This document shows positions 14,501 to 36,257 of a stretch of DNA of 64,000 bases, piece after piece (position 1 is the first letter of the stretch; the number at the start of each line of letters is the position of its first letter). The stretch spans positions 2,728,001 through 2,792,000 of the forward strand of contig NZ_CP012371.1 in NCBI RefSeq assembly GCF_000619905.2, written 5' to 3'. The DNA comes from Nitrosospira briensis C-128. GTDB taxonomy: Bacteria; Pseudomonadota; Gammaproteobacteria; Burkholderiales; Nitrosomonadaceae. The notes beneath the pieces are model-generated. The model had not been told where the DNA came from. It worked only from the letters and a program-made list of their open reading frames with translations, and ran no database searches. A program made the translations under genes and the position numbers.

Positions 14501-14623
14501 CTGTTTTCGCAGGTAATCACGCTTTTCATTACGCCGGTGATCTATCTTTATCTGGACCGTTTTTCCGGCGAAGGACCACTTAAGCTCGATGGGGATCAGG
14601 AATCGGGCATCAGAAAAAATTGA
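11531..14623 (+). CDS. RND multidrug efflux permease, HAE1 (MdtB/MdtC-like)
   Basis: 1030 residues, the usual size for AcrB/MdtC-type proton-driven pumps. The first membrane helix (IRRPIMTVLLSASAVVAGII) is followed by a large periplasmic loop, a helix bundle with LAVGLVVDDAIVMLENI bearing the proton-relay Asp pair, a second loop, and the C-terminal bundle with GIVKKNAIMMIDFA. The sequence around residues 20-60 resembles MdtB/MdtC, but only one pump gene is present. It starts 59 bases after the adaptor gene, so the two form one operon. Substrates are unknown. Confidence 0.93.
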   Translation: MNLSELCIRRPIMTVLLSASAVVAGIIAYGGLSIAALPSYDSPTISVSAVLPGASPETMASSVAAPLERQFATISDLSVISSTSTLGNTTITLEFDQNRDIDSASIDVQAALLRAQRSLPVEMTAPPSYRKINPADSPVIFLALTSPSMSLPELNSFAEDLISPTLSTLAGVAQVQINGQKKYAVRVLANPEALAVRNLTLDDIAAALQTANANSPIGTLEGPRQALTIQANRQLSDAAAFARLIVATSPNGNPVRLSEVAEVEDSVQSLKTASWINGERAITLSVQRQPGANTVATVDAVKAAIPRLVAQMPSSVQLKLTTDRSVSIRDSIHDVQVTLAITIFLVLLVIFLFLRKASATLIPALSLPISLLGTVAMMRVLDYSLDNISLLAITLAVGLVVDDAIVMLENIVRHIEKGLSPVQAALQGSKEVSFTIISISLSLVAVFIPIFFMPGVIGLLFHEFAAVVGIAVLMSAVVSLTLVPVMTSRYLARHEAESFSLRWTEWFDRGFNQVLATYERLLDLALIYRRTVLGIAFGTFFATGVLFMVLPKGFFPNEDIGQALITVDAVEDISFPAMTKLLQRTGEVISAHPAVDTLIIYASESNSARLYMTLKPRSERSSIEKITEELRRDVRAIPGVNVFINPIQNLRLGGRMSKSRYQYVMRSVRAEELRAAADSLIARMSEDAIFRDVTSDAQLKGLEARVNINRDKVNLLGVQMADIRSALYSAFGERQVSTIYTSSDSYQVILQVAAEHQLDESAFGKIYLRAKNDMLVPLSSVATVEREVGPIAINHAGQLEAMTISFNLAPGASLGDASAHIDQFKHELNLPASILTSYAGDAAAFQSSQTSQVVLIVAALLVIYVLLGVLYESYIHPLTILSGLPSAAVGALGMLWLFNMELSIIAMIGILMLIGIVKKNAIMMIDFALDAQRNDGLKPYEAIRTACLLRFRPIMMTTLAALMGALPIALGLGAGAELRQPLGLAVVGGLLFSQVITLFITPVIYLYLDRFSGEGPLKLDGDQESGIRKN

Positions 14624-14629
14624 TGACGA

Positions 14630-15949
14630 TCATGGCGAAACACGCGGCTTCTTGAAGTTATTTACTACAATTTGACCGCCGGACATAACGAGATCAGGAT
14701 ATTCCAAGATTTTCAGGTTATGAGCAGGATCTCCCCGGACTGCAATGATATCCGCGGGCGCATCCTTTTGCAGTGTACCCAGCAGCGGTAAACCCAGATG
14801 CTGGCCTGCTTTCGAAGTCGCAGCGCGCAACACGTCCATTACGCCCAGCTTCGCCATTTGCATCATGTACATAAGCTCTTGCGCATCGATACCCCTCGGA
14901 ATATCCGGATGCGCAACCTCGGCGCCGTATAAAAGTTCTCCTCCAAGCGCTGCCCAGTTGCGGGCATTACCTGCAATCCCGGAACATTTCGATAGCGTAT
15001 CCAGCGTACCGACTATTTTTACATTCTGCGCCACTGCCTGCTTTAGCAGCGATTCGGGAATAACGTTACATGGCATGTGAGCCCACTCGTCAACACCTGC
15101 ATTGATTGCAATTTGCGCGCCTGTTACCTCAGCAATATGTGCCGTCACTTGACGATTGTTTTTATGTGCTTCATCCACGATCGCTCTGACGATATTTTCC
15201 GGTAGCAGTGGCCATGCATGTTTTGCATGGGAAGAATCATGCGCATGTGGATGCCGGGCCTCTGCATGTTCGATAACCGCTGGATCATGATGACCATGAC
15301 TGGAATCATGGCCGTGACTGGAATGGCCGTGACCGGAGGACCACGGAGCGCCCGCTTCACCGCCGGGTTCCAGCGCGATTTTGATCACGACAGCGCCCCC
15401 CCTGATAAGATCGCGGACGGTTGCGCGTGCTTCTTCTTCCGTTGAAACCGCTGTTGCGATGTTGGTATCTCCCAACATCGGGATAGGGTAGCCGTTCGGT
15501 GCGGTAATTATTGGTCCGGAGGTGAGTACACGTAAAGCGCCATCTCCGCCATATGGCTTATGTAGGGGCCCGCCGACGTCCCGGATGGTCGTAATGCCAT
15601 GCTTCAGGACAGTATCGGCCGGAATATTTTGAAATGAAAGATGCGCATGCAGTTCGATAAAGCCGGGTAGTATCGTTGAATCGCCCAGATCGATGACCCT
15701 CACATGACTGGACTCAAGTGATTCACGCGTATCAATTCGTGCAACTCGCCCATTTATCACTAATACCGACGTGTTGGTTCTGATGTTATAGCCATCGAAA
15801 ACTCTTGCTGCGTGCAGCAGAACAGATTCGTGCTCCGTTTTCTCGGCGACGGCTCCAGACGAAACAGAGATTGTCAGGATCAGCAATAAACAGGACATCA
15901 TGTGGCTGATCAAGCGGAAGCGCATGTATTTCATCATTTCATATCCCAT
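14630..15949 (-). CDS. Secreted amidohydrolase with a histidine-rich insertion
   Basis: From ATG 15949, placed 10 bases after the upstream stop and behind an AAGGA ribosome site, the protein is 439 residues. A signal peptide is followed by a metal-dependent hydrolase of the amidohydrolase/imidazolonepropionase type: IELHAHLSF near residue 100 (metal His-x-His), a Lys in VVIKIALEP that may be carbamylated, and later metal His residues in VTAHIAEVTG and DEWAHMP. Between about residues 200 and 243 lies an insertion rich in Gly-His and Ser-His units. It may bind metal such as copper, zinc or nickel. It is the last gene of the sulfur-transfer cluster. Substrate unknown. Confidence 0.8.
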   Translation of the reverse strand: MGYEMMKYMRFRLISHMMSCLLLILTISVSSGAVAEKTEHESVLLHAARVFDGYNIRTNTSVLVINGRVARIDTRESLESSHVRVIDLGDSTILPGFIELHAHLSFQNIPADTVLKHGITTIRDVGGPLHKPYGGDGALRVLTSGPIITAPNGYPIPMLGDTNIATAVSTEEEARATVRDLIRGGAVVIKIALEPGGEAGAPWSSGHGHSSHGHDSSHGHHDPAVIEHAEARHPHAHDSSHAKHAWPLLPENIVRAIVDEAHKNNRQVTAHIAEVTGAQIAINAGVDEWAHMPCNVIPESLLKQAVAQNVKIVGTLDTLSKCSGIAGNARNWAALGGELLYGAEVAHPDIPRGIDAQELMYMMQMAKLGVMDVLRAATSKAGQHLGLPLLGTLQKDAPADIIAVRGDPAHNLKILEYPDLVMSGGQIVVNNFKKPRVSP

Positions 15950-15959
15950 TTCAGATCCT

Positions 15960-17069
15960 TTAACAGTGGTTCGGTTCGATGGCGCCAATAAGCACGCAGA
16001 GTGCCGCCATGAGAAAAAAGCTGCCCCAGGCCGACTCGACCAGCGCATCCTTTCCTTCATTGGTTTTGTAACAGCAGCCCCAGAATTTTCCCGGCGCGGT
16101 CCTGCGTGAAATTGTTTTACTTTCGTCAAGACCCGTGAAATATCGGCTGCGAACGATTGCAGCGATCTGCTGATGGGCATGAATGCGCCATGAAGTGCCA
16201 TCCGGTACGATATCAGCCAGCGACAGCATTGCCAGAGACGCGATCACGGTAGACGATGGATCGGAAAGACCCAAGGGATTGTCGAGCCGGTTTGGAGGCA
16301 GAGGTTCCAGACGAGAACGCTTCCAATATTCACAGGCAGACTGGGCATGGGTCAAGTAAGGTTCTCCCCATCGCGCCGCCGCCCGGCTCAATCCCAACAT
16401 GGCCCAAGCCTGACCACGAGACCACATGCCTGCTCGATCGGAGGGACAAAAACGCTCTTGTTCAAAATGTGCGACGGAATGAAATACGCCATCATCTGCA
16501 TGACATGCCGTCAATATCGTATTTGCATGACATTGCGAGATGTGTGCGTAATCATCACGATCACTGTGGCCGAGAAGCTGCGTTAAGGAAGCAAAGGTAT
16601 CCGTCGTAATGAGTTTGTTTCCGTCTTTTCCGCCGCCCATACCGGTACCAAGGGGTATGCAATTTATTTCCGGATCATAGGAAGCCGCAAGTGCGGCGAT
16701 GGCTTCTCCTGTAAGCTTGTGTGCATTGGTATCGTCAAACCAGAGCGCTCCCAGGGATGCGCCATACCAAAAAATCAGGCTTCGATTAACGGAATCGACG
16801 CTGATTTTCGAGGATAAGCGCTGACAGATATCCGATGCTTTGCGTTGATCCGCGGTTGATCCGGTTAGTCGCGATCGCAACCACCACCATGCCCCCCAGA
16901 ATCCTCCGGTCCAGGAACCCCCCGGGGAGACAATCCAGCGATCAGTATGTCCCGGTGAATAAAGGGGAAAGCCGCCCATAACGTGAGAGTCAATGATCTC
17001 CATACGGTGCATCATCAATTCAAGCGCATTTATCAATTCTTTACGGCTTAATAGCGGTTCGTAAGCCAT
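15960..17069 (-). CDS. Glycoside hydrolase family 88 / unsaturated glucuronyl hydrolase-like protein
   Basis: 369 residues from ATG 17069, which avoids overlap with the MFS gene ending at 17102. The sequence shows the helical (alpha/alpha)6 repeat pattern with GGSWTGGFWGAWWW, LGTGMGGGKDGNKLITTDT and the motif MWSRGQAWAMLGLSRA, shared with GH88/GH105 enzymes that hydrolyse unsaturated uronic acid sugars. No signal peptide is apparent from this start. Finding it between an MFS transporter and an amidohydrolase in a sulfur-carrier cluster is unexpected, so it may act on the cluster's product rather than on polysaccharide. Fold assignment is better supported than activity. Confidence 0.65.
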   Translation of the reverse strand: MAYEPLLSRKELINALELMMHRMEIIDSHVMGGFPLYSPGHTDRWIVSPGGSWTGGFWGAWWWLRSRLTGSTADQRKASDICQRLSSKISVDSVNRSLIFWYGASLGALWFDDTNAHKLTGEAIAALAASYDPEINCIPLGTGMGGGKDGNKLITTDTFASLTQLLGHSDRDDYAHISQCHANTILTACHADDGVFHSVAHFEQERFCPSDRAGMWSRGQAWAMLGLSRAAARWGEPYLTHAQSACEYWKRSRLEPLPPNRLDNPLGLSDPSSTVIASLAMLSLADIVPDGTSWRIHAHQQIAAIVRSRYFTGLDESKTISRRTAPGKFWGCCYKTNEGKDALVESAWGSFFLMAALCVLIGAIEPNHC

Positions 17070-17101
17070 ATCGGTACTACCGGATTCCGGTTGATGAAGG
17101 A

Positions 17102-18307
17102 TCAGCAAGTGGGTGCCTGTACTTTGCGGCGACGGGCGGACGCCAATACCAAAGATAGGGCGCATGCGAGTAAAAGGGAGCTAACCTGCATGCTCCAGCC
17201 AAGCGGCAAGCCGGTGGAATAATTGGACAAGGCACCGTAAAGCGGCGGGCCCAGCGCGAAACCGCCGAAGAAAGCAGCCGAAACGAGGCCAGACGCGGCA
17301 CTTACAGGACCAAAAGCTGGATCTCTGATCAGCATGCTCATTGCGATCGCGTTAGTGCCTACCGCGGTGAGCCCCATGCCCGCTGCACCAACCCACAGCC
17401 ACCAAAGCTTTGCCGGCCCCGCTTGCATCGTCGCCATCACCGCGCAAGCCGCAATAGCGATCAGTACGAGTAAAAGTAGCGACTCGTCTGCAAGTTTTGC
17501 GCCCATCGGAGTCAATACCATGCGCGAGATTATTCCCATTACACCGAAAACGGCGATCAAGGTGCCGGCCATGGATAGCGGCATGCCTTGCTGGGTAGCG
17601 AAGGTAGGCAAGAATGTGACGAAGGCGGAGAGCGATATGCCCACGCAGAACTGAATGCCCATCAGCCGCAGCAGCAGCGAATTCGGTGGCAAAAACATGA
17701 ATCTCCTGCCCGTCCTTGCATGTATTTTAGGGGTGACGAAAGGTGCCGTTATCCCGAACAATATTGCCGCCGGCACAATCATGCCTAATGCGACACGCCA
17801 GCCATACTGGATTGCGATGCCGGGAAGCACCAGGCCGGCGAAAAGGGCCGCGACCTGAACGCCGGATTGCTTGAGTCCTACGACCTGTGCTCTTTTTTCC
17901 GGCGGAACCTGCTGCGCGATCAATAAATTCGTGACCGGATTTGCAAGGGCCTGGGCGATGCCGCAAACAGCGGCGGCCGCGACCAAGCCATAAAAATTTT
18001 CAACCGATGCCATCAGCGTAAAAGCCGATGCGATGGTGAAGAAAAGCGCTATCAATGCATAACGTGAACCAATACGGTCTACGAAAATTCCCGCCCATAG
18101 CGACAAAATTGCTGCCAGGCCAAATGAGCTCATTACCAGATAACCCAGTAATGCGGGCTCAAAGCGCAAGTCATGGCCAATGAGGGGCCCAAGCGTGCTG
18201 ATGGCATATAAAATCAGCATTGGCAAGGTCATCGCGAACACCAGGACTACTCGAAGCCAAATGCCCGCAATGCTTGCATGACGAGCGTCGCGGGTCGTTA
18301 CCGACAT
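17102..18307 (-). CDS. Major facilitator superfamily transporter
   Basis: 401 residues from ATG 18307, which has an AAGGTG ribosome site just upstream; an earlier start at 18373 is possible. About 12 membrane segments, with the MFS loop between segments 2 and 3 (GIFVDRIGSRYAL). It is an inner-membrane carrier, plausibly the exporter of the product made by the adjoining ligase, dehydrogenase and sulfur-carrier genes, or an importer of its metal complex. Comparable clusters for thiocarboxylate siderophores carry an MFS gene. Direction of transport cannot be read from sequence. Confidence 0.85.
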   Translation of the reverse strand: MSVTTRDARHASIAGIWLRVVLVFAMTLPMLILYAISTLGPLIGHDLRFEPALLGYLVMSSFGLAAILSLWAGIFVDRIGSRYALIALFFTIASAFTLMASVENFYGLVAAAAVCGIAQALANPVTNLLIAQQVPPEKRAQVVGLKQSGVQVAALFAGLVLPGIAIQYGWRVALGMIVPAAILFGITAPFVTPKIHARTGRRFMFLPPNSLLLRLMGIQFCVGISLSAFVTFLPTFATQQGMPLSMAGTLIAVFGVMGIISRMVLTPMGAKLADESLLLLVLIAIAACAVMATMQAGPAKLWWLWVGAAGMGLTAVGTNAIAMSMLIRDPAFGPVSAASGLVSAAFFGGFALGPPLYGALSNYSTGLPLGWSMQVSSLLLACALSLVLASARRRKVQAPTC

Positions 18308-18439
18308 GGTTCGCACCTTGCGCTGCCGAATGGATATCGACCCCCATATGCTGATACAAGCGGGTAATGACACTCACGCTGCATGCTGCACCCGCACAGT
18401 AAGTCGCTGGAGAAATTTGACGGATTTACCAAGATTGAA

Positions 18440-19642
18440 TCAGGCAAAATGATATGCGCCCTCTTCTTTATATAAATTGATGAGTCGGCGGCCCACGGAA
18501 CTGATAAGCGACTCGTCTGTACCGTCAAGAATGCGTGACGTGCGTGCGATTCTATAAATACCGGAAAGCGGGGTCAGATCACTGATGCCTTCAGCACCGT
18601 GAATCTGTACCGCCGAGTCCGATGCGATGCACAAAGCTTGTGATGCTGCTATTTTGGCGACATTGATCTCGACATTATTTGAACGTTGGGCGTCGACGCC
18701 TCTCGCGGCGACCCGAATCAGTTCACGCGCACTCGCAATAGCCTGATACGCGTTGACAATATGTTGGCGCACCAGCTGTTTCTCAGGTAATCGAGCGGAT
18801 CTGCCACGCTCCGAATTGATTCGAGCCCCCATCAAATCGAAACATCGCTGTGCCAGCCCCACCCAGTTCATCGCACGAAGCAATCTGCCGATGCTCAGCC
18901 GCTGCCCCATTAATTCGATACCGCTGCCGCAGGCTCCCAACAGATTATGCTCAGGGACCTGTACGTCGCTAAAAGAAATCTCGCCTTGATCCAGAGAGCG
19001 GCCCATCATGGTGATCCTGCGTTCGATCCTGAATCCCGGCGAATCAGTCGGGACGATAATCATCGATAGCGCTTTGCCGAGTGCGATGTCTTCCCCGTCA
19101 GTACGTGCCAGCACAGTGATGAATGTCGCCCGGTCCGTATTGCTGACAAACCATTTTCTGCCATTGATAGTCCAGCTCCCGTTTGACAGATATGCGTATG
19201 TCGTTATCAGGCCGGGAAAGGACCCGCCATGCCCCGGTTCCGTCATGCCGTAACTGGGGACGGCTTTCCCGAGGGCCATGGGTTCGAGGAAGCGCTTGCA
19301 GACTTCATCGGTTCCGAATTTCAGGAGCATATGCGCATCAAGCGCGGAGTGGTTGCCGAAGATTGCCGGGGAGAATTCCGTTCGTCCCTCCTGTTCAGCA
19401 ACGATCAGGTAGTCTTCAAGTGAAGCTATTTTTCCACCATGCGAGAGCGGATAAAATAAACCCCATAGTCCGGCATGCCTTGCCTTTTCAGTCAGTTCCG
19501 ATTGCAGCCGGGTTGACCCTTCGCCATCTTGAGCCAATCGTGATTCGTTCGGGATAATCATTTCATCGACAAACTTTCTCACCTTGCTCGACAGCGCTCT
19601 CGCCGACTCCGTATGAGTTGATTTTTCACGTGCGCTCAACAT
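18440..19642 (-). CDS. Acyl-CoA dehydrogenase family flavoprotein
   Basis: 400 residues with the usual three parts: an N-terminal helical domain, a middle beta domain with YGMTEPGHGGS and WFVSNTDRATF, and a C-terminal helical domain with AIASARELIRVAARG and IHGAEGISDLTPLSGIYR. FAD-dependent oxidation of an acyl-CoA thioester is the family activity. It overlaps the preceding ligase gene by 7 bases, pointing to coupled translation and a shared pathway: activation of an acid, then desaturation or oxidation. The usual catalytic Glu was not pinned down by eye. Confidence 0.88.
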   Translation of the reverse strand: MLSAREKSTHTESARALSSKVRKFVDEMIIPNESRLAQDGEGSTRLQSELTEKARHAGLWGLFYPLSHGGKIASLEDYLIVAEQEGRTEFSPAIFGNHSALDAHMLLKFGTDEVCKRFLEPMALGKAVPSYGMTEPGHGGSFPGLITTYAYLSNGSWTINGRKWFVSNTDRATFITVLARTDGEDIALGKALSMIIVPTDSPGFRIERRITMMGRSLDQGEISFSDVQVPEHNLLGACGSGIELMGQRLSIGRLLRAMNWVGLAQRCFDLMGARINSERGRSARLPEKQLVRQHIVNAYQAIASARELIRVAARGVDAQRSNNVEINVAKIAASQALCIASDSAVQIHGAEGISDLTPLSGIYRIARTSRILDGTDESLISSVGRRLINLYKEEGAYHFA

Positions 19643-21309
19643 TGGTTCGTTCCATGAGTAACGCCCGGGTCAGCAATAGGCCGGGTAAATTCTATTTCCG
19701 CGGTCAACTGTTTTTTATCGATCTTTCCCGCTGGGCTGAGCGGTAACTGCCGGTAATAGCGCAAGTATTCCGGAAGCTTGGCGGTCTCCAGACCCTGGTT
19801 GCACAAGTAGCGGGTGAATTGCGACAGCGAGGGACGTTCTGCTCCATCCCGCAATGCGAGGCAGAGGCAAACGCGGTGCCCCAGGTCCGGATCGGCAACC
19901 GGTATACAGGCAGCGCTCACGACAGCCGGATGGGAAACGGCGATGTTTTCGATTTGTGCAGGACTGATATTGACGCCGCCGCGAATAATGATGTCTTTTT
20001 TACGCCCCGAAAGCACCAGATACCCGTCATCGTCAATAAGTCCCAGGTCTCCGGTATAAACCCATCCATCCTTGTCTCGATATAGGGCGTCCAGATCGGG
20101 AGCATTGACATATTGCATTGGGCTTATCGGCCCCCTGGCTGTGATTTCCCCCACGCAACCCTGCGGAACTTCCTGTTTCTGGTCATCCACTATCCGGATG
20201 GAACAAACGTCGGGTTGAGGCCGGCCCGCCTTGAAAAAAACGGTTTCCAGATCGTCATCAAGCGTGGTGTGGCAATTAACGCCGTCCGCTGAACCGTATA
20301 GGCTGATAAAACCACATCCAAACGCCTCGGTACAGCGGCGAATCGAGGCGGAATCGATTTTCGCGCCACCGCTGATGATGGCGATCAGGCTGGAAGTATC
20401 GGTTTTCGATAATGCCGGGTCGGCGGCGATGCGCTGAAACATTGTCGGAACCCCAAATATATAGGTAGGCTTCAGTTCCGCAATAGTTTGAATGGCAGCC
20501 GCGACATCGAATTGCCGCATGACGACAACGGATCCGCCAAGCCAGGATAAAATACCGAATGTCGCGGTTGAACCAAATGCCGTGCCTAGCGGCATCAGGT
20601 AAAGGCCTCTGAAAGAACTGCCGTCAGGATGTATGTGTTGTAGAAAGCGTCCTCGTCCACCAGCCAGCGCGTTGTGAGAATAAGCAATCCATTTTGGCTC
20701 GGATTCCGTCCCGGATGAGATCAGGAAGCGAACGGGCGAATCGGGGGAAATCGTCGGCAACTTATCAGTTTCAATGGGCTCGGCTAGAAATAGATCATCC
20801 AGCGTGTGCCAGCCTTCCCGGGTGACTTTACCGTCAACGATGAGAATACGAAGTGACAGCAGGGTGGGGCGCAGCGATTCGATAAGTTCGCACAGGTCGA
20901 TCTTGGCATATTGCCCTTCGATAATAATTACACGTGCATCACACCTTCTCAGCAAAGACTGGATATCGAGGCGACCGCGACCGAGCGGGAAGGGCGCTAC
21001 GATCGCACCCAGCGCGGCAGCGGCGAGATCGATGGCACAGCTATGCCAGGTGTTGTGGAGCTGGTACGCAACGACATCTCCGGGAACGATTCCGAGCGCC
21101 TTGAAACTTGCAGCAAGGCGAAGCACCTTGTTCGATAACCCTTCGTATGTGATGGTGTGGTCGAGGGACATCACCGCCGGGGTGTCGGGATGCTGCCTCA
21201 CATGCTCGCGGAACAACTCGTACAACGATTTATTGGGATAGGTTCCATTCCGGGCCCACAGGCTGCGAACCTCGGCAGGAACCAGATCCGTGATCCCGGA
21301 ATGGTTCAT
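19636..21309 (-). CDS. Acyl-adenylating ligase (acyl-CoA synthetase / AMP-ligase)
   Basis: 557 residues, ANL superfamily. ATP-binding loop FLISSGTESEPKWIAYSH, A5-like GFISLYGSADGVNCH, A7 VYTGDLGLIDDDGYL, A8 GRKKDIIIRGGVNISP and the catalytic Lys in SPAGKIDKKQL are all present. It should activate a carboxylic acid as the adenylate, then load CoA or pass it to the sulfur carrier. Its ATG overlaps the stop of the CaiB-like gene (ATGA), so translation is coupled. In thioquinolobactin-type pathways an AMP-ligase activates the acid that receives sulfur. Confidence 0.9.
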   Translation of the reverse strand: MNHSGITDLVPAEVRSLWARNGTYPNKSLYELFREHVRQHPDTPAVMSLDHTITYEGLSNKVLRLAASFKALGIVPGDVVAYQLHNTWHSCAIDLAAAALGAIVAPFPLGRGRLDIQSLLRRCDARVIIIEGQYAKIDLCELIESLRPTLLSLRILIVDGKVTREGWHTLDDLFLAEPIETDKLPTISPDSPVRFLISSGTESEPKWIAYSHNALAGGRGRFLQHIHPDGSSFRGLYLMPLGTAFGSTATFGILSWLGGSVVVMRQFDVAAAIQTIAELKPTYIFGVPTMFQRIAADPALSKTDTSSLIAIISGGAKIDSASIRRCTEAFGCGFISLYGSADGVNCHTTLDDDLETVFFKAGRPQPDVCSIRIVDDQKQEVPQGCVGEITARGPISPMQYVNAPDLDALYRDKDGWVYTGDLGLIDDDGYLVLSGRKKDIIIRGGVNISPAQIENIAVSHPAVVSAACIPVADPDLGHRVCLCLALRDGAERPSLSQFTRYLCNQGLETAKLPEYLRYYRQLPLSPAGKIDKKQLTAEIEFTRPIADPGVTHGTNQC

Positions 21310-23207
21310 TTGAAGCTCCAGGGGGAGTTGACTTTCGTATAAGCACCGGGGGTCAGGGTCGACTGCAGATGTGCCATGGTTTGCAGGTCTGCAAGGTCTT
21401 CAATGACAACGGCTGAGGGGACGCCTGCATGTTCAAGGATACCTGCCCACTCATCCGCCGTTCTTGAAAGGAACCAGTCGCTCAAGCAATCCTGAAAATT
21501 GTCTTCTTCAATAACGATAGCGGCACCCAGGGCTTCGGCTAATCGCACCGCAGTCTTTAAATCGCGACATTCAACCGCAATTTCCCCCCGTTTAGTGGCA
21601 TAGATGGCGTCAATAATGCTTTTTGAAGCTGGACCGGAGTTCGGCAACGCATATAGGCGCTGAAAATCATCCGCACACAGAAGCGTTGCCGCGCTCATTA
21701 ACGATGACGTGACCTTCGCGCTCATATTATTCATACATCGATTGAGCAGCGCGATAGTGATCCCTTGTGCTGCAACAACGCCTCCGAGCACATCGAGTAT
21801 CGTAAATAAGGACCCGCCACGCGTATCGGAGGTTTCCGCGATCTTTTTGGCAATCCCGGAGTAGGCTTGCGCCATGAAGTCTGTGCCGGGCATCTGGCTG
21901 GAGGGAGAATGTGTCGCGCTGTCCGTTGCCCAACCGCCGGCATAGGCGTAAATCAGGGATGGATTGGTTGCAGCCAGATCTTCATGGTCGAGATTTAACA
22001 GTACCGCTTTGCCAGGTGCCCAGTTATGCAGAAAGACGTCGGCACGTTGCACCAGTTCCTTGACTTCTGTTTGTCCCGCCAGGGATTTGATATCGACTTC
22101 TCGAATAGTTTTAAAACGGTTGAGCGCATCGAATCGTGCTGAACAATCACCTGCCATTGGTGGCATGCCTCGCAGAGGGTCTCCGCCCGGTGGCTCTATC
22201 CGGATGACCTCCGCGCCCAGCAGCGCCAGCAGGTGCCCGGCAAGAGGGCCCTGGATCCGCCGGCACGATTCGATGACGGTGAGCCCGCTTAACGGTAAAT
22301 TACCCGTGGAACGACTTGACCATCCGTCCCATCCGTTCTTGAGACGCGTCTCGAAAAGGAACTCCCACGGGCCTTGAAGCCATACATGCCGGCTGTCTTC
22401 GTCCTGGGCTCTGTCATTTATGGATCGCACGGGACAAATAGCCATACCGGTTCTGGCACATATCTGGGAGATGCGGTGATACGTAATGTTTGATATAGCG
22501 TTGAATAACTCATCAGGCAGAGGGGAAATGGCTTTGGCATATCGCAGCAAAAAAGCAGTCCATCCTTTGCCGGCGACTGTTGAACTTACACCGATCTCGG
22601 ACCAGAATTTTTGCCAAGGCCCGGCGTCAAGTGTTTCAAGTTCAAAGATGACGCCATCCAGCGAAATGAAAGGGAGACAGGCCGACTGTGGGACATGGCT
22701 TGGCCTTGGGCTCTCGTGAGACTCTGAAGCCGTTGCACCCGCGATATATTGCCCCATGCTTAACAGGGCTGCGGACGCCATCGAGACGTCACTGTTCGAT
22801 ACCGAAAGGCCGCGTAGTTGGCCAATGGAAGCGCTAATCCCGCCCTGAAGCGCCAAAGCGGCGGTCAGGGTGGAAATGTAATTCAACCCCAGCGGTTGGG
22901 ATCCACCGCTGGCCCGCCCATGGACGGACATCAATCCGCAAGCTGCCTGCATTATATTTTCTGTCACAGAAGCTTGTTTGGAGCTATCACCCCATCTGGT
23001 TACATTACATGTTATGGGTGTGGTATGCGGAGTCTTGAATTCAAAAGAAAGCGCTGCATTGTTCGAGCAATTTTCGGTTGTCTCGATTTTCATGCCCAGC
23101 GCACCGGACTGGTAAAGAAGTGAGGACGCTATCTCGGCAAAATCCGGGGCAGCGCTTTTTAGCGGGCCCGTTATTGCACAACTGGTTAATGGGCGATTCA
23201 TACTCAT
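21306..23207 (-). CDS. CaiB/BaiF-type (class III) CoA-transferase, two-part protein
   Basis: 633 residues, longer than the usual 380-430. The C-terminal part (from about residue 300) is a recognisable class III CoA-transferase: LSGLTVIESCRRIQGPLAGHLLALLGAEVIRIEPPGGDPLRG, DVFLHNWAPGKAVLL and GTDFMAQAYSGIAKKIAE, which should contain the catalytic Asp. The N-terminal 300 residues resemble a second, degenerate CaiB-like unit. It starts 25 bases after the sulfur-carrier gene and overlaps the ligase. It may move CoA between acids, or have been recruited to act on the thiocarboxylate intermediate; this is inference. Confidence 0.8.
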   Translation of the reverse strand: MSMNRPLTSCAITGPLKSAAPDFAEIASSLLYQSGALGMKIETTENCSNNAALSFEFKTPHTTPITCNVTRWGDSSKQASVTENIMQAACGLMSVHGRASGGSQPLGLNYISTLTAALALQGGISASIGQLRGLSVSNSDVSMASAALLSMGQYIAGATASESHESPRPSHVPQSACLPFISLDGVIFELETLDAGPWQKFWSEIGVSSTVAGKGWTAFLLRYAKAISPLPDELFNAISNITYHRISQICARTGMAICPVRSINDRAQDEDSRHVWLQGPWEFLFETRLKNGWDGWSSRSTGNLPLSGLTVIESCRRIQGPLAGHLLALLGAEVIRIEPPGGDPLRGMPPMAGDCSARFDALNRFKTIREVDIKSLAGQTEVKELVQRADVFLHNWAPGKAVLLNLDHEDLAATNPSLIYAYAGGWATDSATHSPSSQMPGTDFMAQAYSGIAKKIAETSDTRGGSLFTILDVLGGVVAAQGITIALLNRCMNNMSAKVTSSLMSAATLLCADDFQRLYALPNSGPASKSIIDAIYATKRGEIAVECRDLKTAVRLAEALGAAIVIEEDNFQDCLSDWFLSRTADEWAGILEHAGVPSAVVIEDLADLQTMAHLQSTLTPGAYTKVNSPWSFK

Positions 23208-23232
23208 TCCTCATGTGTGGAGCAAGGCCGGT

Positions 23233-23508
23233 TCAGCACCCACCGGCAACCGCAGGCAAAATGGTTAACGAGTCGCCGTCGCTCAGGCTGGTTGAAAGGC
23301 CGTTGGCAAAACGAATGTCATCGTCGTTCACGTATATATTGATGAAGCGGTGTGCCTTTCCTCCGGCGATCAGTTTCTCTTTGACGCCGGGATACCGCTG
23401 CTCCATATGTTCGATAACTTCGAGTACGCTGAAACCGGTAATTGTGAGACGTTTTTGATTGTCGGTAAGTGGCCTTAATATGGTTGGGATATTTACGGTG
23501 ATTTGCAT
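23233..23508 (-). CDS. ThiS/MoaD-like sulfur carrier protein with Gly-Gly-Cys tail
   Basis: 91 residues with the beta-grasp pattern of MoaD/CysO: MQITVNIPTILRPLT, a central helix SVLEVIEHMEQRYPG, IYVNDDDIRFANGL and LSDGDSLTILPAVAGGC. Sulfur carriers need a bare Gly-Gly end for adenylation and thiocarboxylation. Here one Cys follows the Gly-Gly at residues 89-91, so a protease is needed first. The JAMM genes next door are the obvious candidates. The ribosome site AAAGGA lies upstream of the ATG. A short inverted-repeat element separates it from the JAMM genes. Confidence 0.88.
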   Translation of the reverse strand: MQITVNIPTILRPLTDNQKRLTITGFSVLEVIEHMEQRYPGVKEKLIAGGKAHRFINIYVNDDDIRFANGLSTSLSDGDSLTILPAVAGGC

Positions 23509-23613
23509 GCTTTTTCCTTTTTCTGATTTTATGATTTTGAAGAAACGGCAATTGGATGTGGTGCGGCTGGATGTTGCCTTTCAGCATTGAAATTAAAGCG
23601 TATTGCGGAACTT

Positions 23614-23714
23614 GGCAGCCTGTCGGACTTAAAGTAAATCGGCTGCAAAAGCGTCTGGGCGGTTTATATTTCGCCGCTTTTTCGTTGCGATTCTTTCAAG
23701 TCCGACAGGCTGCC
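23614..23714 (-). repeat. Interspersed inverted-repeat element, copy B
   Basis: 101 bp with perfect 17-base terminal inverted repeats, GGCAGCCTGTCGGACTT at 23614-23630 and its complement at 23698-23714. In reverse orientation it matches copies C and D. Compared with D it lacks the segment between two direct CGAAAAAG repeats, as expected from a deletion between them. It sits between the sulfur-carrier and JAMM genes. Confidence 0.85.
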
Positions 23715-23725
23715 AGGCAGGTTGC

Positions 23726-24169
23726 TCAAGCCACCATTGCCAGTTCCCATTCCGATTTATATGAATCCAGCATTCTGACCCGCTCCTCGGTCACCATGCC
23801 GTCACAAATCCGGAAACTGCGAATTTCGTCCCCGTAAATGGGATTTGTTGGAATGATGACGTAATGGGACCGAAGTTCGGCTGCAAACTTGACGTCGGTT
23901 CGGCTTGGATAGGCCTGCGTATCAGTGTGGGAGTGATAGATAACGATAGGTTCTTCGTCCCGCGCCTCCATTTCTCTCCAGACCTGCAATTGCTGATTGG
24001 GGTCGAACTTGAAAAATACCGCCGACCGAGCCGCGTTACGCATCGGGATCAGGCGCAATGGAAGATTGCATCCCTGGGGACCAGCGATGATTCCACAGGT
24101 CTCGATGGGGTGATCTTTATGTGCTTGAGCAATCATTGCCTCAACGAGTTTGGTGTGTATGGTCAGCAT
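23726..24169 (-). CDS. JAMM/MPN+ metalloprotease, copy 1 (downstream copy)
   Basis: 147 residues of the JAB/JAMM zinc protease family. Glu23 and the motif H79-S-H81-x7-S89-x2-D92 match the JAMM signature exactly, so it should be catalytically active. Bacterial relatives either trim extra residues from a sulfur carrier's C-terminus (QbsD for thioquinolobactin) or release an amino acid from it (Mec with CysO). With the neighbouring carrier ending in Gly-Gly-Cys, trimming of the Cys is the likely job. The protein is identical to copy 2. Ribosome site GGAGG lies 10 bases before the ATG. Confidence 0.9.
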   Translation of the reverse strand: MLTIHTKLVEAMIAQAHKDHPIETCGIIAGPQGCNLPLRLIPMRNAARSAVFFKFDPNQQLQVWREMEARDEEPIVIYHSHTDTQAYPSRTDVKFAAELRSHYVIIPTNPIYGDEIRSFRICDGMVTEERVRMLDSYKSEWELAMVA

Positions 24170-24256
24170 ATTTTTTTAACCTCCATGACATTGTTTATTC
24201 AGGCAGCGGGAAAACACGAGGATTGGTTATTCCAGGCAGGCTGCCAGGCAGGTTGC

Positions 24257-24700
24257 TCAAGCCACCATTGCCAGTTCCCATTCCGATTTATATGAATCCA
24301 GCATTCTGACCCGCTCCTCGGTCACCATGCCGTCACAAATCCGGAAACTGCGAATTTCGTCCCCGTAAATGGGATTTGTTGGAATGATGACGTAATGGGA
24401 CCGAAGTTCGGCTGCAAACTTGACGTCGGTTCGGCTTGGATAGGCCTGCGTATCAGTGTGGGAGTGATAGATAACGATAGGTTCTTCGTCCCGCGCCTCC
24501 ATTTCTCTCCAGACCTGCAATTGCTGATTGGGGTCGAACTTGAAAAATACCGCCGACCGAGCCGCGTTACGCATCGGGATCAGGCGCAATGGAAGATTGC
24601 ATCCCTGGGGACCAGCGATGATTCCACAGGTCTCGATGGGGTGATCTTTATGTGCTTGAGCAATCATTGCCTCAACGAGTTTGGTGTGTATGGTCAGCAT
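24257..24700 (-). CDS. JAMM/MPN+ metalloprotease, copy 2 (upstream copy)
   Basis: Identical in all 147 residues to the copy at 23726-24169, with the same upstream ribosome site, as part of the perfect tandem repeat. It lies closer to the ThiF-rhodanese gene. Identity shows the duplication is recent or kept uniform by recombination. Either copy would suffice for the activity, so the second may raise dosage or be a transient state. An assembly artefact is also possible. Confidence 0.9.
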   Translation of the reverse strand: MLTIHTKLVEAMIAQAHKDHPIETCGIIAGPQGCNLPLRLIPMRNAARSAVFFKFDPNQQLQVWREMEARDEEPIVIYHSHTDTQAYPSRTDVKFAAELRSHYVIIPTNPIYGDEIRSFRICDGMVTEERVRMLDSYKSEWELAMVA

Positions 24701-24867
24701 ATTTTTTTAACCTCCATGACATTGTTTATTCAGGCAGCGGGAAAACACGAGGATTGGTTATTCCAGGCTTGGGCCCGAAATCCGGTCTAAAACCAATAAC
24801 GATTTGTTTTGTTTATGGTTTGGATACCAGCCTGGGGTAGCGGTCAGCCCCTCTGCTGGCCGCTCGG

Positions 24868-26040
24868 CTAATAACTGGGCAACGACTGATCGACGTCCCT
24901 GATCCACGCTAGAATTCCACCGTCCAGGCTTTTGACGTTGGTGAAGCCTTGCTTTTTCATCTCCACGAGAACATCTCTCGAACGGATGCCCATTTTGCAA
25001 TGCACTACGATGAAATCCTCTTTGTTGAGCTGAGATAAAACCTCTTCGGTCATGATTTTATTTTTGGGAATGTGGTTGGCGCCTTTTATGCGGACAATGT
25101 TCCATTCTTCGATTCCACGAACATCGATGAGCCGCATATCCTTACCGCTGTCCTGCATCTTCTTGAGTTCCAGCGGACTGATTATGAAGGGGTTCGTCAT
25201 GTTTTCCGTGGCTACCGGCTTCACTCCGCAAAATTCCTGGTAATCCATTAATCCGGTTATAGGCGTTCTCGCAGGTGCGCGCTGCAAGGGAATAAACCTG
25301 TATGTCATGTCCAGGGCGTCATAGACAGCGAGTCTTCCAAGCAGGGTTTCGCCTAAGCCGGTGATCAATTTAATGGCTTCTGTCGCCATGATCGCGCCGA
25401 TCGAGGCACAGAGAATGCCTAACACGCCACCTTCGGCACATGAGGGCGCCATCTCCGATGGGGGTGGCTCGGGGTACAGATCACGATAGTTCAAGCCCAC
25501 TCCATCCGGCGCATCCTCCCAGAAGACGGAGGCCTGTCCTTCGAATCGAAAAATGGATCCCCATACATATGGTTTTTTCGCAAGCACGCAGGCATCGTTG
25601 ACAAGATACCGGGTAGAAAAATTATCCGTCCCATCTACAACCAGGTCGTACCCTGAAATTATCTCAACGGCATTTGTCACTTCAAGGCGTTCGTTATGGA
25701 GCTGGACATGAATATGGGGGTTTAACTCGTTAACCGAGTCTTTCGCACTCCTGGACTTGAGCCTGCCGATATCCGATTGCCCATGAATGATTTGCCTTTG
25801 CAAATTGGATTCGTCGACGACATCGAAGTCGATGATTCCCAGTGTTCCGACGCCGGCTGCCGCGAGATACAGCAGCACGGGTGACCCTAAACCACCGGCA
25901 CCTATCACTAAAACTTTACTGTTCTTGAGGCGTTTTTGTCCTTCCACGCCGACATCTGGGATCAGCAGATGGCGGCTGTACCGTGAAACTTCATCTCTGG
26001 TTAATTCTTCCGAAGGGTGTACTAATGGTAGTAATTGCAT
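24868..26040 (-). CDS. MoeZ-type ThiF/E1-like adenylyltransferase with C-terminal rhodanese domain
   Basis: 390 residues from ATG 26040, which has GTGGAGG upstream; an ATG at 26094 is less likely. The N-terminal E1-like domain has the nucleotide loop GAGGLG (residues 47-52), DGTDNFSTRY, and a Cys in PSCAEGG near residue 200. The C-terminal rhodanese domain has its active Cys at residue 348 in HCKMGIRSRD. There is no CxxC zinc pair, as in mycobacterial MoeZ. It should adenylate the trimmed carrier and transfer sulfur to make the thiocarboxylate. It is adjacent to the JAMM genes. Confidence 0.92.
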   Translation of the reverse strand: MQLLPLVHPSEELTRDEVSRYSRHLLIPDVGVEGQKRLKNSKVLVIGAGGLGSPVLLYLAAAGVGTLGIIDFDVVDESNLQRQIIHGQSDIGRLKSRSAKDSVNELNPHIHVQLHNERLEVTNAVEIISGYDLVVDGTDNFSTRYLVNDACVLAKKPYVWGSIFRFEGQASVFWEDAPDGVGLNYRDLYPEPPPSEMAPSCAEGGVLGILCASIGAIMATEAIKLITGLGETLLGRLAVYDALDMTYRFIPLQRAPARTPITGLMDYQEFCGVKPVATENMTNPFIISPLELKKMQDSGKDMRLIDVRGIEEWNIVRIKGANHIPKNKIMTEEVLSQLNKEDFIVVHCKMGIRSRDVLVEMKKQGFTNVKSLDGGILAWIRDVDQSLPSY

Positions 26041-26117
26041 AAAAACCTCCACGTTTAATTCACGAAGCTCATCACCAACATTCGACAGGTTCAACAGGAA
26101 TCCATTACTCTTGCCAT

Positions 26118-28055
26118 TCAGAAGCTTGCGGAAAAGCCGATCTGCCCCCAGCGCCCCGGCATCGGATACCCTGGACGATAGGCGTAACGGGCATCCAGAA
26201 GATTTTCCATAGCCACGAAAATTTCGCCTCTTTTGCCAAGCTGCGGCAACTGGTAAGAGACGCGGGCATTCATGATCGCAAATGAATGAACGCTCTCGCT
26301 GTTGACAGCTCCCGCCGCACGCGGCCGATTGAGCGCCAGTACGCTTGATTGGTACTGGGTGTCGACTGTCAGGCGAATGGGCCCCATTTGCCCATTCAAG
26401 CCGGCCGTGACGGCTCTCTTTGGCGTATACGGCAAATTATCGATGCTGGGATCAAGCAATGTCATTCCACCAAAAACCGTCCAGTTGGCCGTAATGTTTT
26501 GTCGAATCGCAACTTCAGTGCCGCGTATGGTATAGGTACCCAGATTCAGAAACTGCGGCGGTGGCGGAACGTTGGGCGGGAAGCCGAAGATGTAGCGGTT
26601 TTTTACCTGATCGGCAAATACGCTGACATCAATCTGTGTTGTTTCGAAAGGATTCAGCTTGAAGCCGACTTCGGCGTGATCGAGCTCTTCCGCGGCAAGC
26701 TGTCTCCAGCTTTGCCCCAGTGCGGGTATCACGGAGGAAAGTACGGGGGCCTCCAATCCCGGATAATTGATGCCGCGCGATACATTGCCGAAGAGGGTGA
26801 TCCAGTCTGATATCAGAGAGAGACCCGCATGTGGCGACGTCTTTGTCCGGAACATATTGTGGTCATAGACCCGGATGCCAACCGCCGGCACAAGCGACCA
26901 GCCTTTACCCAGCTCTATCGTTTGGCTCAACGCCATGTAAGGGGACGTGACGCGGAAAGCGGGTGCATTAAAACTATCCTGCGGCGCCGGGGCTACTCTA
27001 TTGAATCGCGCATTGCCCGAAATCCAGTCGCTGTCCAGTCCGGCAACAATGGCGCTGCCCTTCCATAGAGAGAATTGCTCCTTCCAGCGCACGCCTATCG
27101 TTTCGAAATTGGTGAGCGTATCTCCATCCAGGCCGGACTGATGCAGCCAGTTACCTTCTCCCTTGCTGTAATAAAAACGTAAGTCACCGCGCCAGTCATT
27201 GTGACGATGCGATATAAAAGCGGAGACCAATCCTGCCTGGGTGTTGTATTGCGGTGCCACGGCGGGTCTCGGCAACCGGTTATCGCCTGGATCGCGCGCG
27301 GTGTTGGTGACAAAAAGAAAGCTTGTGCCAACCGACCAGTTTGCACCCAGCCGCATGCCGATGCGGCCCATCACATTATTCAGTTCGCCGCTCGCATTGA
27401 GTCGCTGGCCATCCGACTGGGCGTGACCTTGCGCCAGCATGAAATCCACATCACCTTTGCGGCCAACCAGATCCGCTTGCTCGATAAAGGTATTGAAATA
27501 GCCTCCGGAAATCCTTGCGCCTGCCTGTATGCCATCCTCGGTTGCGCGCTTGGTTTCCAGATTGATCGACGCAAAGTTATTACCGTTGATTTGAGGTTGG
27601 GGGCTTTTGTAGACGGTAATGGATTGCATGCCATTGACCGGCAACAGATCGAGCAATGGATGGTTCCAGACGCCCATGTAAAATGGAACGCCGTCAATGT
27701 AAGTCTTGATTTCACTGCCGGGCCGGCTGACACCCATTCCGCGTATAAAGACCGCGCCGCCTTGATCGCCACCAAAAGCACCCACCGGGTTGTACCGTGA
27801 TATTTGCACCCCTGGGGTGCGGCGCAGCGCGGCCGCGAGATCGAACGCATTCTGATCGCGAAGCTGGCTTTCGGTGACCACCGCGGATGTGCTTGAAAAC
27901 GGATCGATGCGCACGCGATCAATGATTGGATTGGACGTCACAACGACGGGAGTCAGCGCGGTAGTTGAGGATTGCGTCGTAGTCTGTGCCATCGTAAACC
28001 CTGAAAAACTTATTGTTATGAATGTTATGGTCGATGCAATCTTTCTCATTCTCAT
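26118..28055 (-). CDS. TonB-dependent outer membrane receptor
   Basis: 645 residues. A signal peptide (to about residue 23) is followed by a possible TonB box (LTPVVVTSNP), a plug domain with LAAALRRTPGVQISRYNP and GAVFIRGMGVSRPG, and a 22-strand-type barrel ending in a C-terminal Phe (WGQIGFSASF). It takes up a metal chelate, cofactor or other scarce ligand using energy from TonB. As first gene of the minus-strand cluster it is the natural candidate receptor for the cluster's product or its metal complex. No cobalamin riboswitch box was found upstream. Confidence 0.92.
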   Translation of the reverse strand: MRMRKIASTITFITISFSGFTMAQTTTQSSTTALTPVVVTSNPIIDRVRIDPFSSTSAVVTESQLRDQNAFDLAAALRRTPGVQISRYNPVGAFGGDQGGAVFIRGMGVSRPGSEIKTYIDGVPFYMGVWNHPLLDLLPVNGMQSITVYKSPQPQINGNNFASINLETKRATEDGIQAGARISGGYFNTFIEQADLVGRKGDVDFMLAQGHAQSDGQRLNASGELNNVMGRIGMRLGANWSVGTSFLFVTNTARDPGDNRLPRPAVAPQYNTQAGLVSAFISHRHNDWRGDLRFYYSKGEGNWLHQSGLDGDTLTNFETIGVRWKEQFSLWKGSAIVAGLDSDWISGNARFNRVAPAPQDSFNAPAFRVTSPYMALSQTIELGKGWSLVPAVGIRVYDHNMFRTKTSPHAGLSLISDWITLFGNVSRGINYPGLEAPVLSSVIPALGQSWRQLAAEELDHAEVGFKLNPFETTQIDVSVFADQVKNRYIFGFPPNVPPPPQFLNLGTYTIRGTEVAIRQNITANWTVFGGMTLLDPSIDNLPYTPKRAVTAGLNGQMGPIRLTVDTQYQSSVLALNRPRAAGAVNSESVHSFAIMNARVSYQLPQLGKRGEIFVAMENLLDARYAYRPGYPMPGRWGQIGFSASF

Positions 28056-28128: not shown

Positions 28129-28787
28129 TCATAGTATGTCATCGTCATCAATTGGAATGTACTTTTCGCGGTGCCAGAAAAACAGCTTACGGCGGCGAGG
28201 CCGAGAAGCGCCATATGCCGGGCTGATCCCAGCCTCCCGGAGCGCTACCGCAAAACGCTCATATGCGTGCTGATGGGAAATGTAAAACAAATTTATGAAA
28301 TTAGGAATGTGGCATATTGTCGCATGTGGCATATTGCCGCACTTGCTGGCGACATGCGTTCTAGCGCTATGCTTTACTCAAAAATTTCAAATGGGTATTA
28401 CCGGGAATAGCCGTGGCCAAGAGTGACTTTATGGGTTTGGGATGTCCTGGCAGCCTCTCGGACTTGAAGAATCGCAGCGAAAAAGTGACTGGGTGAGGAT
28501 ATGGACCGGCCAGACGCTTTTGCAGCCGATTTCCTTTAAGTCCGAGAGGCTGCTAGAAGCAGGGGAGTGCGATCCCGCTTGGGAATGAATCAGCGGATTG
28601 GGTCAGTGGGCCGAATTTTTGGGATTTTTGTGAATCAGCCGGAGTGAAGCGATGTTCGTCACGTCGTTACTAAAGATCATATGGCATAAGGGACGCGCTC
28701 GGGTATCATGCGCGCCCTATGATTCCGCTCGAGCGTATGACCTTCAATCTCGACGCTTGATCTTTTTCTTTATCGCCAGCTGCAGCG
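28129..28787. other. Intergenic region between the TonB receptor and metG
   Basis: About 660 bases with no supported gene. It contains repeat element C at 28450-28553. The short open frames here have no family features. The promoter of the minus-strand receptor cluster should lie in the left part, but no good -35/-10 pair was identified. Confidence 0.5.
28450..28553 (+). repeat. Interspersed inverted-repeat element, copy C
   Basis: 104 bp, terminal repeats CAGCCTCTCGGACTT and the complement AAGTCCGAGAGGCTG. Against the other copies both ends carry a matching change (CTGT to CTCT on the left, ACAG to AGAG on the right), so pairing of the ends is kept. The centre is shorter than in copy D. It lies between the TonB receptor and metG. 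Confidence 0.85.
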
Positions 28788-36093: not shown

Positions 36094-36257
36094 AGCAGCC
36101 TGTCGGACTTGAAGAATCGCAGCGAAAAAGTGACTGGGTGAGGGCAGATTTTGGGGATTTTGAAGACCAATAGTTATTCTATTGGTCGAAAAAGCAGCGA
36201 AATATGAACCCGCCAGACGCTTTTGCAGCCGATTTCCTTTGAGTCCGACAGGCTGCT
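36094..36257 (+). repeat. Interspersed inverted-repeat element, copy D (longest copy)
   Basis: 164 bp with ends AGCAGCCTGTCGGACTT and GAGTCCGACAGGCTGCT. Inside it has two direct CGAAAAAG repeats and a perfect hairpin GACCAATAG(36165-36173)/CTATTGGTC(36179-36187). Copies B and C look like internal deletions of this form. It carries no coding frame. It lies between the divergent thyA and the M17 aminopeptidase gene and may contribute to the upstream region of either. Confidence 0.85.

Follow-up and report, generated by a model that had tools for sequence, protein, structure and literature searches.

We analyzed a 64,000-nucleotide stretch of the genome of the ammonia oxidizer Nitrosospira briensis C-128 (contig NZ_CP012371.1, positions 2,728,001 to 2,792,000; here called the window, numbered from its first letter) and found a block of genes that probably forms a cluster of the pdt family, its product being a small thiocarboxylic acid that is secreted and most likely binds a transition metal. 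We consider it likely that a thiocarboxylate is made and plausible that it serves as a metallophore. Running down the minus strand from 28055 to 14630, the block encodes a TonB-dependent receptor, a MoeZ-type protein, two copies of a JAMM protease, a sulfur carrier, a CoA-transferase, an AMP-ligase, an acyl-CoA dehydrogenase, a major facilitator superfamily (MFS) transporter, a GH88-like protein, and an amidohydrolase. Judged by its sequence, the block is a variant of the pdt type of thioacid cluster. Nitrification is the work of ammonia oxidizers, which rely on copper and iron enzymes, and little is known about how they acquire metals. The window is part of a single-contig genome of 3.21 Mb that carries three amoA-family genes.

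We found that the block is real and conserved, is under purifying selection, and looks functional. A full-length ortholog of the CoA-transferase was present in 15 of 23 genus genomes, the window's own included. Ten gene types stood together in the same order in 14/14 loci from other genomes of the genus, and the ratio of nonsynonymous to synonymous substitution rates (dN/dS) was 0.04 to 0.27 for ten genes (three pairs with the window). Because of this shared order and these ratios, the block is not a chance arrangement. A sequence-only reading of the window had held that scattered homologs would speak against a cluster; they were clustered. With the thiocarboxylate set conserved to this extent, the question of whether these bacteria make their own chelator is directly testable. 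Two further genes recurred in the genus: an AlgE-like porin in 13/14 loci (PF13372, assigned via the member in locus L038) and an alpha/beta hydrolase between the MFS and GH88-like genes in 9/14. Both are missing from the window and from Nitrosospira sp. Nsp11, its nearest named relative among the loci compared. The two are sisters in the CoA-transferase tree (100/100), so a shared loss of porin and hydrolase is likely.

The five core proteins correspond to the types named PdtF-G-H-I-J in Table 1 of Iyer et al. 2006 (PMC1779556, in the part consulted). Profile matches placed all of the gene classes of the sequence-only reading where it had put them, with the GH88-like protein recognized by profile and predicted fold. 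The PdtF-type protein, an E1-like adenylyltransferase with a rhodanese domain (24868 to 26040; the longest open reading frame [ORF] extends to 26094, and 26040 is our chosen start), matched PRK07878 MoeZ at 637 bits, narrowly under the cutoff of 647. Its rhodanese Cys was conserved in 53/53 rows. The PdtG-type JAMM/JAB protease (copy 1, 24257 to 24700; PF14464, E 2e-29) shows HSH-x7-S-x2-D, which we take to be the JAMM motif. The PdtH-type MoaD/CysO-like carrier (23233 to 23508; PF02597, E 8e-15) ends in -GGC. The PdtI/PtmU4-type protein is a two-domain type III CoA-transferase (21306 to 23207; PF02515 in two stretches), and Asp443 in its second domain was conserved in 52/52 rows having the column (53 rows, 49 different). 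The PdtJ/PtmA3-type acyl-CoA synthetase/AMP-ligase (19636 to 21309, 557 amino acids [aa]; PF00501, E 5e-56) had no methyltransferase domain that we could find, and its gene adjoins that of the CoA-transferase with a 4-bp overlap, as in the PtmA3/PtmU4 cassette. This overlap and one of 7 bp between the ligase and dehydrogenase genes are real. Other, larger overlaps are artifacts of taking the longest ORF; likely starts are 18307 (MFS), 17069 (GH88-like), and 15934 (amidohydrolase).

From Dong et al. 2018 (PMC6006322) and the pdt and qbs literature, we infer the sulfur-transfer chemistry. In the part of Dong et al. consulted, PtmA3 is shown to activate the acid by means of CoA, with a carrier supplying the sulfur that PtmU4 transfers. 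In N. briensis, the JAMM protease would cut the -GGC carrier back to a free Gly-Gly end, which the MoeZ-type protein would adenylate and to which it would donate its rhodanese persulfide sulfur, giving carrier-COSH. The AMP-ligase would convert the acid to a CoA thioester, and the dehydrogenase would oxidize the CoA-bound scaffold. Asp443 of the CoA-transferase would then accept the acyl group and pass it to the carrier sulfur, releasing the thioacid. The MFS transporter (in relatives, also the AlgE-like porin) would export the product, and the TonB receptor would reimport its metal complex.

The same carrier chemistry could instead serve cysteine (CysO/Mec/CysM type) or molybdopterin synthesis and merely neighbor catabolic genes. 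The closest solved chains to the carrier are 4n6e_B and 3dwg_C, and the latter is of the CysO type. On the other hand, no cysteine synthase or molybdenum cofactor gene was found among the scanned proteins of the block, a linkage that the sequence-only reading had said would count against a metabolite cluster, and the carrier keeps the CoA-transferase and ligase as companions in the loci whose contig covers both. We consider this explanation very improbable. Elsewhere in the genome, two more ThiF-family and two more ThiS-family genes scored over the cutoff, so the set in the block is free for a special role.

We compared the block with clusters in the family of genome G222, which is Pseudomonas-like by 16S (93% identity; a 16S search at 1e-140 found nothing). 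The CoA-transferase was present in 12/398 genomes of this family, 11 of them with a pdt-like cluster and 1 with a qbs-like cluster (L085); the protein is split in two in G429, and in the pdt-like L086 it is broken into two frames. All 11 pdt-like clusters carry the core, an MFS gene, and a GH88-like gene (33 to 47% identical to the window's). A dehydrogenase 49 to 55% identical was found in 10/11, the other, G613, having only a 29% relative nearby, and a PigE-like gene was found in 10/11 in the stretches compared. Between the window and G613 or G625, the five core proteins are 43 to 65% identical. The order in G625 is AraC, methyltransferase, permease, MoeZ, JAMM, carrier, CoA-transferase, ligase, TonB receptor, PigD-like, PigE-like, dehydrogenase, MFS, and GH88-like. 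Family scans of pseudomonad proteins were made on those of G613, in which the PigD-like protein scored 620 bits (cutoff, 950), the PigE-like protein scored 1400 (cutoff, 850), and the permease was nearer to AmpG than to RhtX/FptX, with neither match reaching the cutoff.

Thus, the window shares the PdtF-G-H-I-J types, in the same order, with the pdt cluster of Pseudomonas stutzeri and P. putida, and it would also share the dehydrogenase, MFS, and GH88-like genes if G625 and G613 are of the pdt type, which is presumed from the PdtF to PdtJ names. We take an AraC regulator and an AmpG/RhtX-like permease to be defining pdt features, with PdtC, PdtE, and PdtK presumably being the regulator, permease, and receptor. 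With G613 queries at a limit of 1e-6, tblastn detected neither the regulator nor the permease in the window stretch. In contrast to the pdt-like pseudomonad clusters, the window also lacks the methyltransferase, the matching receptor, and the PigD/PigE-like pair, for which there was no match in the window stretch; across the 23 genus genomes, no PigE scored over the cutoff, and the matches covered the aminotransferase part only. Ammonia oxidizers for their part add the amidohydrolase and, in relatives of the window, the porin and the alpha/beta hydrolase. In the pseudomonads, the PigD-like and PigE-like genes, of the prodigiosin 2-methyl-3-n-amyl-pyrrole (MAP) pathway, occur in L082, L083, L075, and relatives (G613, G625, and G716), which suggests a step by a thiamine diphosphate (ThDP) enzyme and an aminotransferase in that branch.

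The resemblance to thioquinolobactin (qbs) clusters is more limited. The MoeZ, JAMM, carrier, CoA-transferase, and AMP-ligase types are shared; the window stretch has no match to tryptophan dioxygenase, which is present in the qbs-like L085, and its 557-aa ligase differs from the 904-aa ligase of L085, which is fused to a methyltransferase domain. Burkholderia multivorans L060 likewise has a dioxygenase match and a 916-aa ligase ORF (domains unscanned). The two qbs-like CoA-transferases separate from all others in the tree with full support. These comparisons support a pathway to a thiocarboxylate, accompanied by genes for export and a receptor, that resembles pdt more than it does qbs. The thioplatensimycin genes share the acyl-CoA synthetase beside a two-domain type III CoA-transferase with the conserved Asp; the part of PMC6006322 consulted places their carrier, protease, and MoeZ elsewhere in the genome, whereas the window has them in the block. 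The cluster had been called undescribed, which is not supported: the consulted part of PMC1779556 lists PdtF to PdtJ types for Nitrosomonas europaea and Nitrosospira multiformis (Neur and Nmul) as siderophore biosynthesis. Its class 4a shares the five-gene core, and the dehydrogenase, MFS, GH88-like, porin, and amidohydrolase genes are not named in that part. This was the only paper that we found linking the core to ammonia oxidizers, although others may have been missed, and the parts of PMC7374359 and PMC10393863 consulted held nothing on pdt gene functions. The core and its chemistry were already known; what is new, as far as our literature search shows, is the complete set of genes in ammonia oxidizers, the ways in which it departs from that of pseudomonads, and its distribution.

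The genes that could supply the scaffold bear on whether the product is pyridine-2,6-dithiocarboxylate (PDTC) itself. The acyl-CoA dehydrogenase (18440 to 19642; PF00441, PF02770, and PF02771) has Asp373, invariant in all seven rows of its alignment, at the position where, reading the alignment by eye, we take medium-chain acyl-CoA dehydrogenase (MCAD) to have its Glu base. The GH88-fold protein (15960 to 17069, start chosen) is backed by no Pfam model. Its profile matched unsaturated glucuronyl hydrolase (UGL; E 6e-17), and its predicted fold (pLDDT, 81) aligned with 1vd5 and 2fv0 at TM scores of 0.77 to 0.80, with an (alpha/alpha)6 arrangement. The UGL catalytic Asp149 is retained as Asp157, invariant in 11 rows. 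UGL Asp88, the residue altered in the structures 2ahf and 2fv0, is Ser97 in the window, so the two-Asp pair of GH88 UGL is not present; the position is Ser in 10/11 rows and Ala in Rugamonas. Weaker structural matches included the apramycin transaldolase AprG (TM, 0.53 to 0.62), which is an example of this kind of fold put to biosynthetic use. The gene had the highest dN of the ten in all three pairs with the window. An altered reaction on a small acid is plausible. We would guess that the lysine pathway provides the scaffold, as dihydrodipicolinate or the hydrated precursor of this acid, that the GH88-fold protein might add or remove water beside a carboxylate, and that the dehydrogenase might then aromatize the CoA ester.

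If the cluster makes PDTC, lysine synthesis would furnish the dipicolinate, and the scaffold would require neither the methyltransferase nor the PigD/PigE-like pair of the pseudomonad clusters. The core, dehydrogenase, MFS, and GH88-like genes common to the pdt-like pseudomonad clusters favor this, as does the G625 gene order, which fits the known part of the pdt lettering. Against it, the assignment of G613 and G625 to pdt is presumptive, no PigE was found in the genus, and no dipicolinate synthase A scored over the cutoff in the window's genome. We regard PDTC as a rather unlikely product. The GH88-like and amidohydrolase genes had both been called extra to known clusters. The first is not, since it occurs in the pseudomonad clusters together with the dehydrogenase; the two accompany thioacid chemistry in a number of lineages, and this is relevant to the origin of PDTC-type scaffolds. 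The second is: the amidohydrolase (14630 to 15934; PF01979, E 8e-12, nine-row alignment), which has a signal-like N terminus and a His-rich loop, was absent from all 13 pseudomonad and Burkholderia rows in the stretches compared and, among the loci examined, was confined to ammonia oxidizers and one Methylobacter metagenome-assembled genome (MAG).

The transport genes suggest a secreted product that is taken up again. The 645-aa receptor (26118 to 28055; Plug domain PF07715, E 7e-16) matched a TonB-siderophor subfamily model at 6e-26, under the cutoff, and one solved receptor weakly (E 1e-4); CrtA-type copper receptors, a class that we considered for it, are longer, at 707 to 911 aa in the part of PMC12914433 consulted. 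Its ortholog was found in 14/14 genus loci and also beside the core in Rugamonas, Paracidovorax, Rubrivivax, and Kangiellaceae. The MFS transporter (17102 to 18307, start chosen; PF07690, E 1e-32) is the presumed exporter. Receptor, transporter, and the porin of 13/14 relatives fit a secreted and recaptured product.

We asked how far the cluster extends beyond the genus. The CoA-transferase was present in 35/125 Nitrosomonadaceae-level genomes. Across 369 class-wide genomes at a strict 1e-35, only the window's own genome matched. A contig scan with two exact peptides from the genus alignment, and thus biased to close relatives, gave 22 loci, from Nitrosospira, Nitrosovibrio, Nitrosomonas aestuarii, N. 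eutropha, and N. europaea, three methanotroph MAGs, Rugamonas, Paracidovorax, Rubrivivax, and a Kangiellaceae MAG. The core is retained in the named Nitrosomonas, Rugamonas, Paracidovorax, Rubrivivax, Kangiellaceae, and methanotroph MAG loci. In the CoA-transferase tree (53 rows, 49 different; L049 and L059, truncated pieces from one MAG, were excluded, and the short loci L095 to L110 were used for the tree and carrier tails and not for synteny), ammonia oxidizers and methanotrophs formed one clade (100/100), with a Methylococcales MAG as its outermost row. The Methylobacter MAG stood at the base of a 19-row group (97/92) in which the Nitrosospira rows are joined by two genomes from the other ammonia-oxidizer genus. 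Its contig has a lower G+C content outside the cluster than inside, and its gene order differs at the ends, which fits transfer; misbinning of the contig is also possible. Of 11 genomes tested for AmoA/PmoA (PF02461), 3 had it, namely those of the window, N. aestuarii, and the Methylobacter MAG; little can be read from its absence in draft or MAG records, which include N. europaea.

The broadest proposal, which we offer tentatively and think somewhat less probable than its negation, is that Nitrosospira and many Nitrosomonas strains follow a pdt-type route to a secreted thiocarboxylate metallophore of their own, drawing on another source of scaffold and on a GH88-fold enzyme put to a new use, that this compound supplies copper or iron for ammonia oxidation, and that it is a new natural product. 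N. europaea, which belongs to this group, is described as a siderophore nonproducer. Alternatively, the product could be a thiocarboxylate antibiotic, signal, or redox agent, with the TonB receptor serving immunity or recycling. We hold this unlikely, though worth weighing. The orthologous receptor beside the core in the genus and in the four other lineages argues against it, and thioplatensimycin (PMC6006322, part consulted) argues for it by showing that thioacid cassettes serve antibiotics too.

Several results weigh against our main reading or its metallophore part, and three of them (the CAS result, the lack of a recurring Fur- or Zur-like box, and the missing receptor ortholog in Nitrosomonas loci) favor the antibiotic, signal, or redox alternative. 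N. europaea, listed with the core in 2006, is reported in the part of PMC3050691 consulted to be unable to make a siderophore detectable with chrome azurol S (CAS). Ahead of the receptor and MoeZ genes, ammonia oxidizers share no recurring Fur- or Zur-like box. The best Fur-like scores before MoeZ were 16/19 in G613 and 13/19 in G625, both beyond 200 shuffles, followed by 14 in L086 (P = 0.01), 13 in L036 (P = 0.015), and 14 in L057 (P = 0.04); the scan was rough (one consensus, single-base shuffles, and dozens of rows), and isolated low P values are expected by chance. The window receptor had no detected ortholog in the stretches compared from three Nitrosomonas loci and the Methylococcales MAG, and a tblastn search of the window stretch with the receptor of the pseudomonad cluster gave nothing at 1e-6. 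The CoA-transferase occurs in only 3/251 genomes of the Methylobacter MAG's order, which we take to be methanotrophs, and these are the three MAGs of the contig scan; this rarity weakens the argument from copper and leaves a copper link as a possibility only. In Rugamonas, the dehydrogenase near the core is just a 27% relative, and no GH88-like gene was detected next to the core in the stretches compared from Kangiellaceae, Paracidovorax, or Rubrivivax, so neither gene is needed everywhere. Finally, among the carriers of 53 rows (two qbs-like rows included; L095, L096, and L099 duplicate the species of L048, L052, and L051), 38 end in a bare GG and 14 have 1 to 14 extra residues. JAMM was found in the synteny loci wherever the contig spans its place. 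Since most carriers already end in GG, trimming is not the general reason that JAMM is kept; as a guess, it may instead cleave carrier-linked adducts.

In the remaining row, N. multiformis Nl18 (L037/L046), the carrier is fused in frame to the CoA-transferase, and this fusion is a predicted natural substrate for the JAMM protease. It is 737 aa long (L046, 9692 to 11905; also in L037 and L018). In the window, the two JAMM genes, noticed earlier as two copies, are an exact tandem duplication: copy 2 (23726 to 24169, minus strand) matches copy 1 at 444/444 bases, within a 531-bp unit that spans 23706 to 24768. The near relative Nsp11 (L024/L058) has a single JAMM site by tblastn, and the duplicate may be a recent event or an assembly error. 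A palindromic repeat resembling repetitive extragenic palindromic (REP) elements, CAGCCTGTCGGACTT and its complement as 21-nucleotide (nt) arms spaced 61 nt, lies at 23613 to 23715 and borders the duplication. A one-base variant pair lies at 28451 to 28552, and lone arms are at 36096 and 63970. Upstream of the block is metG. Downstream, a convergent AcrB-type gene (11531 to 14623) ends 6 bp from the amidohydrolase gene, and an AcrB-type gene also adjoins the cluster in four other genomes (L024 = L058, L040, L041, and L042).

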